From Bacteroidaceae bacterium (GTDB taxonomy: Bacteria > Bacteroidota > Bacteroidia > Bacteroidales > Bacteroidaceae), in contig JAFXVZ010000038.1 in the NCBI GenBank assembly GCA_017534535.1, forward strand, positions 34,366-98,365: DNA of 64,000 nt, in the 5' to 3' direction. The position numbers were made by a program, and so were the translations under genes. Shown piece by piece: positions 3,404 to 48,948 of this stretch (the first letter of the stretch is position 1; each line of letters starts with the position of its first letter). The notes under the pieces are model-generated. The model ran no database searches, had not been told where the DNA came from, and saw only the letters and a program-made list of their open reading frames with translations.

Positions 3404-5251
3404 ATGGCTAACGAGATTGAAGTCAAAGAACTCGAGCAAGTTGTTGTTCGATTCTCAGGAGACTCAGGCGACGGTATGCAGCTCGCCGGTAACATCTTCT
3501 CAACAGTATCTGCTACTGTTGGTAATGACATCAGCACCTTCCCCGATTATCCAGCCGACATCCGTGCTCCGCAAGGATCACTTACCGGTGTTTCAGGTTT
3601 TCAGGTTCATGTAGGAGCTGACAAGGTTTATACTCCAGGTGACCTGTGTGATGTGTTGGTAGCTATGAATGCAGCTGCCCTCAAGACACAGTATAAGTTT
3701 GCCAAGCCTACTGCCTGCATCATCATCGATACAGACGCATTTAAGGCAACAGACCTACAGAAGGCGGAGTTTAAGACAGATAACCCTATCGAGGAAATGG
3801 GTATCAAACAGGATGTGATTGCTGCTCCTATCTCTAAATTGGTTCAGGAATGTTTGGCAGATTCAGGCATGGACTTGAAGTCTATGATGAAATGCCGCAA
3901 TATGTTTGCTGTGGGTCTGGTATGTTGGTTGTTCAACCGCGACCTGAAACTGGCTGAGAACTACATCCGCGAGAAGTTTGCGAAGAAACCTGCCATTGCT
4001 GAGGCTAATATCAAGGTAATCCACGCTGGTTATGATTATGGTCACAATACGCATTCATCTGTGGCTCATACCTATCGCATCGAGAGCAAGGTTACTGTCC
4101 CAGGTAAATATATGGACATTACCGGTAACAAGGCTACGGCATACGGCTTGATGGCTGCTGCTGAGAAGGTAGGCAAGAAACTTTTCTTGGGCTCTTATCC
4201 TATCACCCCAGCTACTGATATCCTACATGAGTTGGCTAAACACAAGTCAATGGGTGTCATAACCATGCAGTGCGAAGATGAAATCTCTGGCTGTGCATCA
4301 GCTGTGGGTGCTGCTTTTGCTGGTGCTTTGGCAGTAACCTCTACCTCTGGTCCAGGTGTTTGTTTGAAATCAGAGGCTATGAACTTGGCTGTTATCACAG
4401 AGTTGCCATTAGTATTGGTGGATGTACAGCGTGGTGGCCCTTCTACAGGTTTGCCTACCAAGTCTGAACAAGCCGACCTGCTGTTGGCGCTATTCGGCAG
4501 AAGCGGTGAGAGCCCATTGCCAGTGATTGCAGCTACCTCTCCAACCGACTGCTTCGACAAGGCTTACATGGCTTGTAAGATTGCTTTGGAGCATATGACT
4601 CCTGTCATCCTTTTAACTGATGGCTTCATTGCCAATGGTTCTTCAGCTTGGAAGTTGCCTAAGTTGGCTGACTATCCAGCTATCAATCCTCCATACGTTA
4701 CTTCAGAGATGAAAGATAATTATGCGCCTTACTTCCGTAATCCTGAAACGGGTGTTCGCTATTGGGCAACTCCAGGTCAGGAAGGCTATGCACATATCGT
4801 GGGTGGTTTGGAGAAAGATAGTAAGACTGGTGCTATATCCACCAATCCTGAGAACCACGACTTGATGGTTCGTCTGCGCGCAGAGAAGATCGCTAAGATT
4901 GAAGTACCTGATGTACTTGTTGAAGGTTGTGCCGATGATGCCGACCTGCTGATTGTAGGTTTCGGTAGTACATACGGTCATCTGTATTCAGCTATGAAGG
5001 AACTCAATGATAAGGATAACAAGGTGGCTTTGGCTCAGTTCAGTTACCTCAATCCATTGCCAAAGAACACAGCAGAAGTGCTGAAGCGTTATAAGAAGGT
5101 AGTAGTGGCTGAGCAGAACCTTGGTCAGTTTGCCGGCTACCTGCGTATGAAGATCGATAATTTTGCACCTTATCAATATAATGAAGTGAAGGGCCAACCT
5201 TTCACTGTAAGTGCATTGGTAGATGCTTTCCAGGAAATAATCAACAAGTAA
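3404..5251 (+). CDS. 2-oxoacid:ferredoxin oxidoreductase, fused gamma-alpha subunit
   Basis: A 615-residue subunit of a thiamine-dependent 2-oxoacid:ferredoxin oxidoreductase, probably the 2-oxoglutarate (KorA-like) type, which links 2-oxoacid and acyl-CoA with electrons moved to ferredoxin in the cytoplasm. Residues about 10-190 form the gamma domain (VRFSGDSGDGMQLAGNIFS); from about residue 230 the alpha/PP domain carries GSYPITPATDILHELA and the TSTSGPGVCLKSEAMNLA segment. The gamma-alpha fusion plus a separate beta gene is the usual two-gene form in Bacteroidetes. The beta gene follows after 18 bp with an AAAAAAGTAAAGA leader, so the two form an operon. The exact 2-oxoacid cannot be fixed from sequence alone. 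Confidence 0.92.
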   Translation: MANEIEVKELEQVVVRFSGDSGDGMQLAGNIFSTVSATVGNDISTFPDYPADIRAPQGSLTGVSGFQVHVGADKVYTPGDLCDVLVAMNAAALKTQYKFAKPTACIIIDTDAFKATDLQKAEFKTDNPIEEMGIKQDVIAAPISKLVQECLADSGMDLKSMMKCRNMFAVGLVCWLFNRDLKLAENYIREKFAKKPAIAEANIKVIHAGYDYGHNTHSSVAHTYRIESKVTVPGKYMDITGNKATAYGLMAAAEKVGKKLFLGSYPITPATDILHELAKHKSMGVITMQCEDEISGCASAVGAAFAGALAVTSTSGPGVCLKSEAMNLAVITELPLVLVDVQRGGPSTGLPTKSEQADLLLALFGRSGESPLPVIAATSPTDCFDKAYMACKIALEHMTPVILLTDGFIANGSSAWKLPKLADYPAINPPYVTSEMKDNYAPYFRNPETGVRYWATPGQEGYAHIVGGLEKDSKTGAISTNPENHDLMVRLRAEKIAKIEVPDVLVEGCADDADLLIVGFGSTYGHLYSAMKELNDKDNKVALAQFSYLNPLPKNTAEVLKRYKKVVVAEQNLGQFAGYLRMKIDNFAPYQYNEVKGQPFTVSALVDAFQEIINK

Positions 5252-6770: not shown

Positions 6771-9080
6771 TTATTGTATTCTGTTGCGTTCCTCATTTGC
6801 TGCACCTGTTCCTTTATACTTACTTCTTGTTGTATTGAAGTTATAGCGGAAAGTAAGTTCTATGGCGCGTGTATCGTTTATCTTGTGCATGAATATCTTG
6901 CGAACATCACTATAGAGCCAAGCCTTGCTGCGACTTGTGTTGAATACATCTTCGCAAGAGAGTTTCAAGCTCCATTTATCGTGAGCGAATGCCTTATAGA
7001 TACTCAAGTCAAACTTCCACATCCCTTTCATGTAAAGGTTTTCCGTATTGCCATTTGTACGATAAGCAAAGTCAGCATTTATCCATGTGTCAGCTGGCAA
7101 CTGAATAGCATTGTTGAAGCGGATTATACCTAATGGGTGGTTCATATTTTTCTTTTTGCCACAAAAAGTCAAGTTGAATTGTTGTGCCATCATGGCTGTC
7201 ATCAATGTAGGATGCCAGATTCCGAAAGACGGGGAGATAGATACCATTGCCTGCAACTGGTTCAAACTTTTGGCATTCTGCTTTTGCAAGAGAGCAATGC
7301 TAGGATTGTCGCCATATTGTGTATAAGCAGTGATGATGTAATCCGATGTGTGGCTGTACTCGAGCATCATATTCAGCCATTTGTAGCCTATTGCCAAAGA
7401 GATATTATCGCGATAGAATGGACGCAGGAATGGATTTCCACTTTGGTAAGTATAGCGATTAATGTATTCCACGTTGCTGCTTAGCTGACTATAGGCAGGG
7501 CGTTCCACTTTTCGGTTATAACTCAATCTCACTCTTGTGTTTTTGATTGGAAACATCAGCATAGCCGATGGAAACAGGTTGTCATATATACGGCTTTGTT
7601 CCTGCATCTTCACATCGTGATCATAATAACGACTATCGATGTGTTCGTAGCGTAATCCTGCACTTAGCATCACTTTGCCTATATTTTGCATTACTTCAAC
7701 AAACAAAGCTCCATTAGATTCTTCGATACGTGTTTTGCTGTCATTAATAAGATGTTCCAAGTTGCTGTAATTATCAGTCCGATGGGTATGACTGAACTCT
7801 CCGCCGAATGAGAAATTGCCCTTGCCAAGCTGCCTTGTTGCAACTGCTTTACCTGCATACATACGGCTCTTGGCATCACTCTCTGTTGTTACAATCCTAT
7901 CATCTGCCTGGGTGGATGTTTCTTTCAATAGCTGGTCGGTATTGGCTCTGTTCCACAAAGCATCTACGTTTATATCCATAGTCCATTTCCCGAAACTGCC
8001 ATTGTAATATCCACTCAACAAATGATTGGTATTGTTTATATCGGCTTGACTGTTATTTGAGGTCTCATTGTCCAGCACTCCATCAATCGTCATTGTAGCA
8101 AACGATTCATTGTCCTGTTTCGTAGGACGGTATACAGGTTGATAGATGGCACCAATGGAATGATGCTCATTAAAGACATAGTTAAATCCAATCTTGCTGG
8201 CAAATGTCTGGTTCTTATTGTAACGCTTGGCAATACCATCTTGCAGCAAGCGAGGTGAGAGGAATGTCTCTTGTGAAGTGATATTCGTCACTCGGTCTTT
8301 TATATTGCTATATTCCAACATTCCGAAGATGTCAAATCCTCCCTTTCGATAGTTGAAGTTGAATTCATCCAGCCCGTAGAAATAATGCCTGATGCCTGCT
8401 ACCGCCCTATTGTCAAAACTCCATCCTTCACCTATAGGCTTGATGGTGGTGATACGGATGACGGCATTGACGGTGGCATCATATCTTGCTCCAGGATTGG
8501 TTACTACTTCCACATTTTTCACTTGTGACGAATTCAACTGATCTAACTCAGAAGTATTACGCATTTGTCTGCCGTTGATGTAGATAAGTGGAGTGCCCTT
8601 GCCAAACACCTCAATGCCGCCATTACTGCTGATAACCCCAGGTACTCTTGCCAATACATCGTTAGCGGTTCCTGCCCTTGATAAGGCACTACCTTGTACG
8701 GTAGTCACCAAAGCGTCTCGTTTCAGTTCTGTTTTGGGAAGATTAGCCTTTACAGTCACTTCACCAAGCAAGTTCTCACTTTCTGACATTTTTATATCCC
8801 CTAATTCACCATTGGCCTGATGTACAAACACATCGTCATAACCAATACAAGATATACGAATGAAACCAGCTTTATCAGTTTCCAATCTGAATAGGCCTTC
8901 GTTATCCGTTACCACACCATTTATATAGAGAGAATCTCTTTCTTGCAGCAACACCACATTTGCATAGCTGATAGGTTTTTCTCTCGTGTCTGTCACTCTG
9001 CCACTAATGGCATTTTGGGCGTAGGTTGCCCCTGTGCTGATGCTCATGAGCACCAGCACCAATAGTTTTAATGCTTTCAT
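6771..9080 (-). CDS. TonB-dependent receptor-type outer membrane beta-barrel protein
   Basis: A 769-residue outer membrane protein. A signal peptide (MKALKLLVLVLMSISTGATYAQ) is followed by a carboxypeptidase-regulatory-like domain (about residues 25-110), a plug region (TVQGSALSRAGTANDVLARVPGV through RITTIKP) and a large beta-barrel of the family ending in SKYKGTGAANEERN, the usual end of these Bacteroidetes receptors. It is not a SusC type: it is shorter and has no SusD partner. It follows an ECF sigma gene and an anti-sigma-like gene on the same strand (21-bp gap), so it is probably the target or effector of that regulatory pair. The transported ligand cannot be told. Confidence 0.88.
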   Translation of the reverse strand: MKALKLLVLVLMSISTGATYAQNAISGRVTDTREKPISYANVVLLQERDSLYINGVVTDNEGLFRLETDKAGFIRISCIGYDDVFVHQANGELGDIKMSESENLLGEVTVKANLPKTELKRDALVTTVQGSALSRAGTANDVLARVPGVISSNGGIEVFGKGTPLIYINGRQMRNTSELDQLNSSQVKNVEVVTNPGARYDATVNAVIRITTIKPIGEGWSFDNRAVAGIRHYFYGLDEFNFNYRKGGFDIFGMLEYSNIKDRVTNITSQETFLSPRLLQDGIAKRYNKNQTFASKIGFNYVFNEHHSIGAIYQPVYRPTKQDNESFATMTIDGVLDNETSNNSQADINNTNHLLSGYYNGSFGKWTMDINVDALWNRANTDQLLKETSTQADDRIVTTESDAKSRMYAGKAVATRQLGKGNFSFGGEFSHTHRTDNYSNLEHLINDSKTRIEESNGALFVEVMQNIGKVMLSAGLRYEHIDSRYYDHDVKMQEQSRIYDNLFPSAMLMFPIKNTRVRLSYNRKVERPAYSQLSSNVEYINRYTYQSGNPFLRPFYRDNISLAIGYKWLNMMLEYSHTSDYIITAYTQYGDNPSIALLQKQNAKSLNQLQAMVSISPSFGIWHPTLMTAMMAQQFNLTFCGKKKNMNHPLGIIRFNNAIQLPADTWINADFAYRTNGNTENLYMKGMWKFDLSIYKAFAHDKWSLKLSCEDVFNTSRSKAWLYSDVRKIFMHKINDTRAIELTFRYNFNTTRSKYKGTGAANEERNRIQ

Positions 9081-47000: not shown

Positions 47001-47082
47001 GCCCAGATGGCGGAATCGGTAGACGCGCTGGTCTCAAACACCAGTGGGGCAACCCATCCCGGTTCGACCCCGGGTCTGGGTA
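47001..47082 (+). tRNA. tRNA-Leu (anticodon CAA)
   Basis: An 82-nt class II tRNA: acceptor GCCCAGA/TCTGGGT, D arm with GGCGGAATCGGTAGACGC, anticodon stem CTGGT/ACCAG with loop CTCAAAC (anticodon CAA, reading TTG), a long variable arm (TGGGGCAACCCA), and T arm CCCGG-TTCGACC-CCGGG. CCA is not encoded. It stands alone, followed by its own terminator. Confidence 0.96.
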
Positions 47083-47090
47083 CACCAGAA

Positions 47091-47135: not shown

Positions 47136-47187
47136 TGTCTATGCTCGATTACTACAGTTAATTGTTGCAACTTATAATTTTTATTTC

Positions 47188-47195
47188 TATCTTTG
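47188..47195 (+). promoter_or_regulatory. -7 motif of the double-glycine peptide gene
   Basis: TATCTTTG, perfect TAnnTTTG match, 28 bases before the ATG at 47224. Confidence 0.65.
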
Positions 47196-47223
47196 CACAA
47201 TAAGTTTCAAAAAAATGGGTGTT

Positions 47224-47415
47224 ATGGAAACGGATAAGAACAAAAGAGTAGTGCAGATTAAAATCGACGACGAAGTAAGGAAACTCACCATCGAGGGCGT
47301 TGACAAGAATCAACAGGTGGTGATGCGAGAAGAACTCAGCGATGATGACCTCGATAATGTAACAGGTGGTGTGTTTATGTTTGGAGGTCAAGACACAAAT
47401 TTGGCTGGTTGCTGA
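47224..47415 (+). CDS. Double-glycine leader peptide with short Cys-ending core
   Basis: A 63-residue peptide: a 49-residue charged leader (METDKNKRVVQIKIDDEVRK ... MREELSDDDLDNVTGG) and a 14-residue core VFMFGGQDTNLAGC. The leader ends in the (E)LSxDDLxxVTGG pattern recognised by C39 peptidase-containing ABC exporters, so the core would be released after GG. An in-frame ATG at 47215 could add MGV. It is paralogous to the peptide encoded convergently at 47489-47746 in the leader only (26 of 49 identical, same length, no gaps); the cores are unrelated. Function unknown: bacteriocin-like, signal, or modified peptide are options. No C39 exporter or maturation enzyme is in the window. Confidence 0.75.
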   Translation: METDKNKRVVQIKIDDEVRKLTIEGVDKNQQVVMREELSDDDLDNVTGGVFMFGGQDTNLAGC

Positions 47416-47434
47416 GATTGTGGCAAGAATTATC

Positions 47435-47468
47435 TCCGTCCAGTAGGATATCAATCCGACTGGACGGA
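47435..47468. terminator. Hairpin between the two leader-peptide genes
   Basis: TCCGTCCAGT pairs with ACTGGACGGA with inner GGAT/ATCC pairing. No strong T-tract on either side. It separates the two convergent genes. Confidence 0.7.
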
Positions 47469-47488
47469 ACTATCGGGTTCAAAAATTA

Positions 47489-47746
47489 CTAATCATTGGT
47501 GGAGTCGGGCCAGAGACTAGTCAATTTCTCTTCATAATCAGTGGAATTATTATTATATTCCGAAGTTAATCTTTCCATAGTATCTTCATGGAACACCAGT
47601 CCTCCCGTCACCAGCTCCAAGTCATCCTCGCTGAGTTCCTGGCGCATCACCACCTTTTCATCACTGTCCATGCCAGTAATGGAAACCTTCTTCACGTTGT
47701 TGTTGAGTTCAATCCTCAACACACGCTTGTTATTTTTTTCTTCCAT
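47489..47746 (-). CDS. Double-glycine leader peptide with 36-residue acidic core
   Basis: An 85-residue peptide: a 49-residue leader (MEEKNNKRVLRIELNNNVKK ... MRQELSEDDLELVTGG) matching the one encoded at 47224, followed by a 36-residue core (LVFHEDTMERLTSEYNNNST..., ending LWPDSTND) without Cys. The core is acidic and rich in Asn/Ser/Thr, unlike membrane-active bacteriocins. It lies 20 bp downstream of the esterase gene on the same strand and is probably read with it. Processing at VTGG is expected if a C39-type exporter exists elsewhere in the genome. Confidence 0.75.
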   Translation of the reverse strand: MEEKNNKRVLRIELNNNVKKVSITGMDSDEKVVMRQELSEDDLELVTGGLVFHEDTMERLTSEYNNNSTDYEEKLTSLWPDSTND

Positions 47747-47766: not shown

Positions 47767-48948
47767 TTACTTGAAAATCAGTTGCACAAATGAGCTGAGG
47801 TTGCGACGCCACACCTTCCACTCGTGGGCACCCGGGTATTGCTCCCAAACCACACCCTTATAGCCCTTGTCAAGTAGCTTCTGCTTGAAGTCCTGCATGC
47901 CGTCGATTCGGTTGTCCTGCTCGCCACAAGCCAGATAGATCACATCGAACTTATTATACTTGGCAGGGTTGGTGTACATGCCTGGGAAGTGCTGCTCGGC
48001 GTCGAAAGGTGCTCCTCCGATGGCTGTAGAGCCAATCAAACCAGATGAGAAGATACCCACGTTGGCAAACACATCCACGTTACGGAAGGCGATGAAGAAA
48101 GACTGTCCACCACCCATTGACAGACCTGCCACCGCACGTCCGTTGCGGTTCTTGATCACGGGATAGTTCTTCTCGATATAAGGCAGGATATCTGCCACAA
48201 GGGATGAATAGTTGTCAAAGTTAGAGCTGTACTTCGTGGTAATCTCCTTGGTAGGGATGCCCAAGGTCTGAGCGGCGTATTGGTTGGGGTTGCCGTTCGG
48301 CATCACCACAATCATAGGCTTAGCCTTGCCCTGTGCGATGAGGTTGTCGAGAATCTGGCAAGTGCGTCCCAGGGTTGACCAAGCGTCCTCATCGCCACCT
48401 CCACCATGCAACAGATAGAGCACAGGATACTTCACACTCTTGTTATTGCGGTCGTAACCGGCTGGCGTATAGACATACATGCGGCGTGTCATGTTGTTCT
48501 CAGCAGAGTAATACCACACATGCTCCACATTGCCAGGCTTGCTGCATTCGGCATATTGGTCGGCATAGCCACCCGGAATCAGCAGGGCGTTCATATAACG
48601 TGAACCGTCACGCTGCACCTGAACATTAGAGGGGTCGAGCATCGTCACGCCATCCACTACGATATTGTAGGTGTACAACTCGGGCGATGGCTGGGGCACA
48701 GACACGCTCCAAATGCCATTGGCATCCTGCTTCATCTGAAGTTGGTTAGCATTATAACCCAGCCAAGAAGCAGATACACTGACTTGGCGTGCCTTGGGTG
48801 CTACGAAGCGGAAGGTCACACTGTCGTTTTTCAACTCAGGTGACTTAACACCTGCACGGAACATTAAAGAGTTCATTTCCTGACCGAAGGCGGAAATGCT
48901 TGTCACAAGGGCTAACGCCAATGTAAAGATTCTGATTGTCTTTTTCAT
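47767..48948 (-). CDS. Exported CE1-type esterase with N-terminal immunoglobulin-like (CBM48/E-set) domain
   Basis: A 393-residue protein: signal peptide to about residue 22 (SAFGQ), an E-set/CBM48-like beta domain (about 30-120; VTFRFVAPKARQVSVSASWLGYNANQLQMKQDANGIWSVSVP), and an esterase-D/feruloyl esterase-like alpha/beta hydrolase (about 130-393). The nucleophile Ser is in VAGLSMGGGQSFFIA, the acid probably in YLACGEQDNRID and the His in YPGAHEWKVWRRNL. This domain pair is typical of Bacteroidetes acetyl/feruloyl xylan esterases. The small leader peptide gene follows after 20 bp. Confidence 0.88.
   Translation of the reverse strand: MKKTIRIFTLALALVTSISAFGQEMNSLMFRAGVKSPELKNDSVTFRFVAPKARQVSVSASWLGYNANQLQMKQDANGIWSVSVPQPSPELYTYNIVVDGVTMLDPSNVQVQRDGSRYMNALLIPGGYADQYAECSKPGNVEHVWYYSAENNMTRRMYVYTPAGYDRNNKSVKYPVLYLLHGGGGDEDAWSTLGRTCQILDNLIAQGKAKPMIVVMPNGNPNQYAAQTLGIPTKEITTKYSSNFDNYSSLVADILPYIEKNYPVIKNRNGRAVAGLSMGGGQSFFIAFRNVDVFANVGIFSSGLIGSTAIGGAPFDAEQHFPGMYTNPAKYNKFDVIYLACGEQDNRIDGMQDFKQKLLDKGYKGVVWEQYPGAHEWKVWRRNLSSFVQLIFK

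Follow-up and report, generated by a model that had tools for sequence, protein, structure and literature searches.

Why should two small genes that face each other carry closely similar leaders and unrelated cores, and which machinery would handle their products? The question is raised by genes A and B of the window, the whole stretch of 64,000 nucleotides analysed here, which lies on contig C6 of the genome of an uncultured gut bacterium (G000; 2.7 Mb, 49 contigs, 89% complete). Comparison of sequences points with considerable confidence to an answer that reaches beyond the window: A and B would belong to a scattered, recombining repertoire of leader-tagged peptides that are exported and cut by one NHLM-type exporter. 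The features of the pair and its surroundings are the following.

47001..47083, plus strand: tRNA-Leu(CAA), neighbour upstream of A
47162..47195, plus strand: promoter-like sequence of Bacteroidota type, 5' of A, spotted by eye
47224..47415, plus strand: precursor peptide A, 63 aa (open reading frame; ATG at 47224, stop 47413-47415)
47224-47370, plus strand: leader of A, 49 aa, with VTGG end
47371-47412, plus strand: core of A, 14 aa, VFMFGGQDTNLAGC
47435..47468, no strand assigned: hairpin between convergent A and B, outer stem 10 bp (folding versus shuffles)
47489..47746, minus strand: precursor peptide B, 85 aa (open reading frame; stop 47491-47489)
47746-47600, minus strand: leader of B, 49 aa, with VTGG end
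47599-47492, minus strand: core of B, 36 residues, without Cys
47767..48948, minus strand: CE1-type esterase (PF00756, CBM_48 at the N-terminus), neighbour upstream of B across a 20 bp gap

The first-pass annotation had described a convergent pair with gapless 49-residue leaders sharing 26 residues, and both the open reading frames and BLASTP agreed with this description: the ungapped alignment of A and B spans 50 columns, 26 of them identical (E 9e-18), and since column 50 is V/L, leader identity is 26/49. The mature parts are unrelated, as had been stated, with a 14-residue core ending in Cys in A and a 36-residue core in B. An extra in-frame ATG at 47215 would add MGV to A. The bacteriocin_sig model TIGR01847 matched A at 16.1 bits, above its cut-off of 15.7, and B at 12.4 bits, under it. 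The hairpin proposed between the genes was recovered with its 10-bp stem, the 73-nt spacer folding at -25.1 kcal/mol against -13.8 in shuffles (z -4.0); it has no U-run, is missing from the terminator scan list, and is possibly a transcript end common to A and B. Upstream of A, TTGTTG (47162-47167) is followed after 20 nt by TATCTTTG (47188-47195), an arrangement found by eye with no tool that looks like the Bacteroidota promoter consensus, and TAnnTTTG-like sequences were likewise seen by eye before many further family genes.

Co-transcription of B with the esterase had also been suggested and is plausible from the shared strand and the 20 bp gap, but the linkage is not conserved in the relative G147. 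At the window site in G147 the orthologous esterase is kept (89% DNA identity over 801 bp) and is followed by an acetyltransferase-like gene, named by reading, and then by a different family peptide. CE1-like esterases elsewhere include one beside a repeat-bearing precursor on contig C49 of G000 (30% identical) and a pair of copies, 42% identical, close to the G065 exporter. As order and orientation vary and G147 breaks the pattern, the esterase was left out as a part of the system.

A search of G000 with B gave 19 strong leader matches including A and B, distributed over ten places on nine contigs, together with one weak match, and a 17-row leader profile gave an equal count of 19. The further family members predicted by the first-pass annotation therefore exist, as 17 copies besides A and B, and because of these copies the likeness of the two leaders is not a matter of chance. 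The genes form arrays of two to four on contigs C1, C6, C9, C13, C14, and C20, and occur alone on C16 and C36 and as two separate genes on C49. Seventeen of the 19 look whole, the remainder being a C36 copy with a stop codon in the leader and a C9 copy cut by the contig end. Leaders are 47-50 residues long with the consensus end ELSDDELDxVxGG and lie outside the known NHLP and Nif11 families, TIGR03793 being matched by 2/37 family members (best E 0.069) and TIGR03798 by 7/37 (best E 0.014) at E <= 0.1; at the same threshold TIGR01847 matched 15/37. When solved structures were searched with the family profile, no match was significant; the PCAT1 exporter substrate aligned at E 0.75 with the GG end and the first part of the core.

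Two further observations concern precursors in G000. The repeat-bearing gene on C49 (L027:5985-6665) encodes repeated cores with MGMCSGYEQQ units, for which the repeat finder reported a 111-bp unit in 2.3 copies, and a CE1-like esterase follows it. Four copies in G000 (L020, L128, L131, and L135) carry basic cores behind a second leader type, EEISDKELNDVSGG, which is shorter; two of the four have a smalltalk protein close by.

The first-pass annotation had placed the exporter outside the window and had tied its reading to the presence of more leaders and a C39-type exporter in the genome; besides the 19 leader genes, G000 holds one such exporter. The single C39 peptidase match lies on contig C35 in an operon of five genes coding for an HlyD-like protein, ABC1 with the C39 domain, ABC2, a second adaptor, and a TolC-like protein. 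ABC1 scored 886.6 bits against TIGR03796, above the cut-off of 853.3, and contains the motifs ECGAA, EHFVVF, and NDPASG, presumably the surroundings of the C39 active site. The adjacent ABC2 has no peptidase and its best NCBIfam match was TIGR03797 (680.4 bits, below the cut-off of 709.4), the first HlyD, also adjacent, best matched TIGR03794 (104.5 bits, below 156.2), and the TolC-like protein and the second adaptor were below the cut-offs of their respective best matches. By a pattern scan, no GG peptide gene was seen near the exporter in G000 or in seven further loci of exporter type from the genus.

The system is split in G000 as had been claimed, with the window on C6 and the exporter on C35, and its parts are joined in three other MAGs. 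These came from a named-genome collection that yielded 44 loci in 14 MAGs, whose source, where titled, was goat reticulum or yak omasum, and the exporter scan covered the fetched stretches of all 44 loci. Leader genes followed by same-strand exporter genes were identified in three of them. In L103, a leader gene at 640-852 precedes HlyD1, ABC1, ABC2, HlyD2, and TolC, which are 47-72% identical to their G000 counterparts (ABC1 72%); in L089, leader genes at 7425-8189 are followed by HlyD1, ABC1, and ABC2 from 9142; and in L078, leader genes at 3843-4884 are followed by two radical SAM genes, one other gene, HlyD1, and the start of ABC1, where the stretch ends. The remaining 41 loci had no exporter gene of >35% identity within the fetched stretch.

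Exporter and leaders also occur in the same genomes. The leader profile matched six of 158 genus genomes, with 19, 20, 7, 8, 21, and 15 copies, the TIGR03796 cut-off was exceeded in eight, and all six leader genomes fell among the eight exporter genomes (hypergeometric 1.4e-9 over 158 related genomes, most of them incomplete). The other two of the eight are G067, in which the exporter is only 45% identical and no leader matched, and G006, in which it is 85% identical and accompanied by a weak partial match to the first leader type (type I) and by the third leader type described below. G112 has an ABC1 piece of about 64% identity, truncated where the contig ends, and likewise gave no leader match. 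Since common descent gives related species shared genes, the comparison was also made inside the clade, using the ten closest relatives (G000 included) defined by at least 96% identity of LeuB (TIGR00169, encoded near the exporter), the next genome being at 90% and 11/158 genomes without a LeuB match not being placed. Exporter and leaders are both present in seven of these genomes (in G006 through the third type alone) and both missing from three, G143, G134, and G026, an agreement with a chance of 1 in 120 under random dealing; with type I leaders alone, six have both, one has the exporter alone, and three have neither (1 in 30). In the three genomes without the system an AraC-like gene and the gene that in G000 borders the operon on its other side lie close together and the operon is absent, so that the exporter site is empty in 3/3. 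These genomes are 73-90% complete, and the absence is firm for the exporter at that site and weak for the leaders. Linkage and co-occurrence together strongly support export of the peptides by this transporter, with the pairing less exclusive in G006 and G028 because other C39-type ABC transporters are present there.

Other export-like loci were seen in these genomes. A second NHLM-like exporter operon whose ABC1 has no C39 peptidase is present in G028 (L124:7170-13091) and G147 (L165:2387-9653). A C39-type ABC transporter with radical SAM-like genes, resembling a peptide exporter, was found in G006 (L191:8172-13966) and G028 (L192:3004-13566), the latter locus also having a short LanC-like gene.

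The conserved leader of the first-pass annotation was upheld and its fully free cores were not, because most cores bear a Cys close to the C-terminus. Two counts describe them: the first used 94 distinct leader-core pairs from 177 ORF hits, with 17 dropped, and the second 94 cores out of 95 genes, a set that overlaps the first without being identical to it; related cores were kept separate. In the first count, core length quartiles were 14, 20, and 28, Cys was present in 80/94 cores, exactly once in 49 of those, and Cys-Pro occurred 28 times against 10.0 in shuffles (maximum 19 over 2000). In the second, 81/94 cores had Cys, and 57 of these 81 had 3-6 residues after the last Cys against 20.6 when shuffled (at most 33 in 2000), while only 2/95 leaders had Cys. 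Both window cores depart from this rule, the Cys of A being the last residue (as in 3/81) and B having no Cys, like 12 other cores of the 94. The position of Cys near the core end led to the idea of an autoinducer-like thiolactone, and heme binding via the CP motifs was a further idea.

Comparison of similar genes bears on how cores may be exchanged. Eleven gene pairs have at least half of their core residues in common; silent change per site exceeded replacement change in the leader in nine of them, and the core replacement ratios, from few sites, were near 1 and above. When seven pairs were aligned with their flanks, ancestry switched inside the gene in three (L036/L048, L023/L092, and L103/L081). 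In the first two of these, the upstream DNA is unrelated and the first third of the leader divergent, and the remaining leader, core, and downstream DNA are far more similar, with the L023/L092 core adjoining different neighbour genes in the two genomes; in L103/L081 the leader is 82-84% and the core 97% identical. The other four aligned pairs were plain orthologues, duplicates, or unclear. Leader DNA was at least 85% identical in 53 pairs, many of them from the same arrays and with L078:4548-4652 excluded for its truncated leader; in 41 of the 53, the likeness of the cores did not exceed that of the best of 20 shuffles.

In some operons, of which L073 is the clearest case, the first leader type alternates with a third, MATLTNEQIEQKK, which ends like LSDDELDxVxGG. 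This third type had Cys in 0/15 distinct cores. It occurs in four of the 158 genomes, one of them by a 14-residue partial match, and each of the four has the exporter; this Cys-free type probably uses the same channel as the first. At L073:3434-6213, ten precursor genes stand in a row with the two leader types interleaved.

If the cores were modified before export, the peptides would be RiPPs throughout: a radical SAM/SPASM maturase, often unlinked, would act on the core, probably at Cys, the leader would serve mainly as the dock of this enzyme, and in G000 the enzyme would lie in the missing part of the genome or be a different one. We hold this reading to be a serious candidate that falls somewhat short of probable. 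Such genes do adjoin leader genes in two MAGs. In G028 the radical SAM/SPASM protein, of 474 aa (L068:10096-11520), starts 87 bp past a leader gene on the same strand, and in L078 of MAG RUG195 two relatives, 71-73% identical, lie between leader and exporter genes, the first beginning within the end of the last of six leader-family ORFs in a row. Unlinked homologues of 64-68% identity are present in G008, G065, and G147, so that with G028 the family is represented in 4/6 leader genomes. The best NCBIfam matches of the enzyme, all below cut-off, are maturases of Cys-containing peptides (TIGR04463, 125.1 against 525; PapB, 107.3 against 340), and Cys is the favoured core residue. Against a general role, the SPASM search of G000 gave the ACGX-system enzyme alone and no member of the leader-linked family, with about 11% of this genome missing, and none was seen in G139 (59% complete). 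Enzymes of other kinds fit no better, as there were no matches to LanC-like PF05147 in G000 at its 89% completeness and none to YcaO cyclodehydratase in any of seven genomes; short LanC-like matches occurred in 2/7 genomes and in G028 lie by a different transporter. The maturase search proposed by the first-pass annotation was therefore productive in relatives and empty in the host. Modification is likely in some strains, judged from the radical SAM enzyme adjoining leader genes there.

Two related loci are recorded separately. The ACGX-system radical SAM/SPASM enzyme of G000 is on contig C17 (L159:1480-2517; TIGR04340, 560.8 bits against 400). A short LanC-like match lies on contig C56 of G065 (L125:1024-8967), where an ABC transporter gene at a distance of about 6 kb contains two TGA codons in frame.

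The neighbourhoods of the leader genes bear on what the peptides do outside the cell. Clustering of 309 neighbours from 112 loci, many of them the same place fetched twice, gave 75 clusters of at least two members, mostly named by reading and only in part searched against families. Nine of the 75 have members <75% identical (esterases, the radical SAM enzyme, HlyD1, a SpoIIE-domain protein, and five others), and the remaining clusters look like orthologous synteny. Within 1 kb of leader genes there were 108 distinct ORFs of 35-99 aa, of which the recurrent ones were the third leader type and smalltalk, a 38-aa protein (NF033879) that by hand count is near leader genes at six places and was not seen at the window. 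In RUG195 (L078:3843-12200), leader genes, two radical SAM genes, a SpoIIE-domain protein, and exporter genes stand in a row, and L084 has a SpoIIE-domain homologue near a leader gene.

One reading compatible with the export mechanism is that the peptides are signals or extracellular-matrix peptides resembling EbfG, neither toxins nor defence, which we consider quite possible and still not the better bet. In G000 the genes are single or grouped by two to four amid housekeeping-like neighbours with no clear dedicated immunity gene by the precursors, and EbfG1-4 depend on a C39 transporter according to the available part of the source (PMC4997328), all of which suits it. Hypervariable cores, on the other hand, are unusual in matrix proteins, and no sensor was recognised among the recurrent neighbours, bar the SpoIIE-domain protein in L078 and L084. 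The extracellular role is the least certain part of the explanation: short-range antagonism, in the manner of a microcin or class II bacteriocin, is put forward tentatively, signalling or kin recognition taken separately appears rather unlikely, and a matrix or surface role by analogy with cyanobacterial EbfG improbable.

That the leader is a spreading repeat followed mostly by decayed and functionless frames is scarcely credible, since the stop codon in the C36 leader and the several shortened copies in relatives that would suit it are set against the excess of silent change in nine of eleven leader pairs, a Cys at a set distance from the core end far beyond chance, leader genes that adjoin exporter genes in three MAGs, and the joint absence of exporter and leaders.

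The sequences themselves establish that leader family and exporter exist, that they occur together and in three MAGs are linked, that the cores follow rules, and that some genes are mosaics; from this we infer recognition, cleavage, export, and modification for the scattered repertoire served by one exporter. The C39-peptidase ABC transporter of C35 would recognise the 47-50-residue leader and cleave past Gly-Gly, and the core would leave via a five-part type I channel (ABC1, ABC2, two HlyD-like adaptors, and TolC). The channel is predicted to release short peptides, half of which measure 14-28 residues and most of which have a Cys shortly before the C-terminus. Before export, the cores of some relatives are probably modified by a radical SAM/SPASM enzyme, and in the host genome, because no such maturase was found, the cores may leave as encoded. 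New cores would come from duplication and recombination within the conserved leader DNA. A wider conjecture, doubtful as a whole, extends this to a rumen-type Bacteroidota clade in which the leader may be both an export tag and the DNA homology that swaps cores between loci and species, Cys and Cys-free types alternate in operons and may pair, the cores are modified in some strains by a radical SAM enzyme that belongs to a new family and is often unlinked, and strain-specific peptide sets act as kin marks, signals, or combinatorial toxins.

In practical terms, most of these precursors would escape mining led by enzyme genes, since most loci show no maturation enzyme adjoining them, and where no enzyme acts the peptides are open to direct synthetic testing. 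No description of such a system was recognised in searches of open-licence literature, and the available portions of a Bacteroidales RiPP survey (PMC10352776) and of the Hungate1000 bacteriocin survey (PMC13289728) make no mention of one.

Several known systems share traits with the repertoire, compared here from the available parts of their sources. The bacteroidetocins (PMC6671954) are also Bacteroidota peptide toxins, in a text that has the term double-glycine; by description they are one toxin family related to class IIa, whereas the cores here are mostly unrelated. The bacteriocin-signal genes of Treponema denticola (PMC11879956) are likewise several, accompany ABC exporters, and belong to a host-associated Gram-negative; as described, they are clustered upstream of the exporter, in contrast to the mostly dispersed genes found here. 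In EbfG/PteB of Synechococcus elongatus (PMC4997328), one C39 transporter is needed for small GG-motif proteins to be secreted efficiently, but there the proteins are four and have a known biofilm-promoting role, against about twenty with hypervariable cores in this case. The TIGR04463/PapB ranthipeptide maturases have a related enzyme adjoining precursors in two MAGs, with scores far under the cut-offs and absent from the matches in the host genome.

There are also likenesses to NHLM and to the prochlorosins. Through phylogenetic profiling, Haft and others (2010, PMC2887384) tied NHLP leaders to the TIGR03794/03796/03797 exporter, and, to the extent of the available text, the two systems share an ABC1 with C39 above the TIGR03796 cut-off and adjacent ABC2 and HlyD homologues, GG leaders with hypervariable Cys-containing cores, large paralogous families, and a link of the co-occurrence type. 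The present system differs in a leader that is neither TIGR03793 nor TIGR03798, in ABC2 and HlyD scores below the cut-offs, in having no LanM or YcaO found, in precursors mostly away from the exporter, and in a host within Bacteroidota. Prochlorosin genes of marine picocyanobacteria can be scattered in the presence of a lanthionine synthetase (PMC10783134), and from what is available of this source many scattered precursors with a hypervariable part again share one machine; here no lanthionine synthetase was found, the leader is not Nif11, and there is mostly one Cys near the C-terminus. The prochlorosins have one machine for dozens of hypervariable peptides, and the same layout now appears in gut Bacteroidota with a different leader, to which the present analysis adds an exporter and leaders present or absent together and core swapping that is visible. 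The verdict is of known kinds of part in an unusual arrangement, a new leader family on an NHLM-type exporter.
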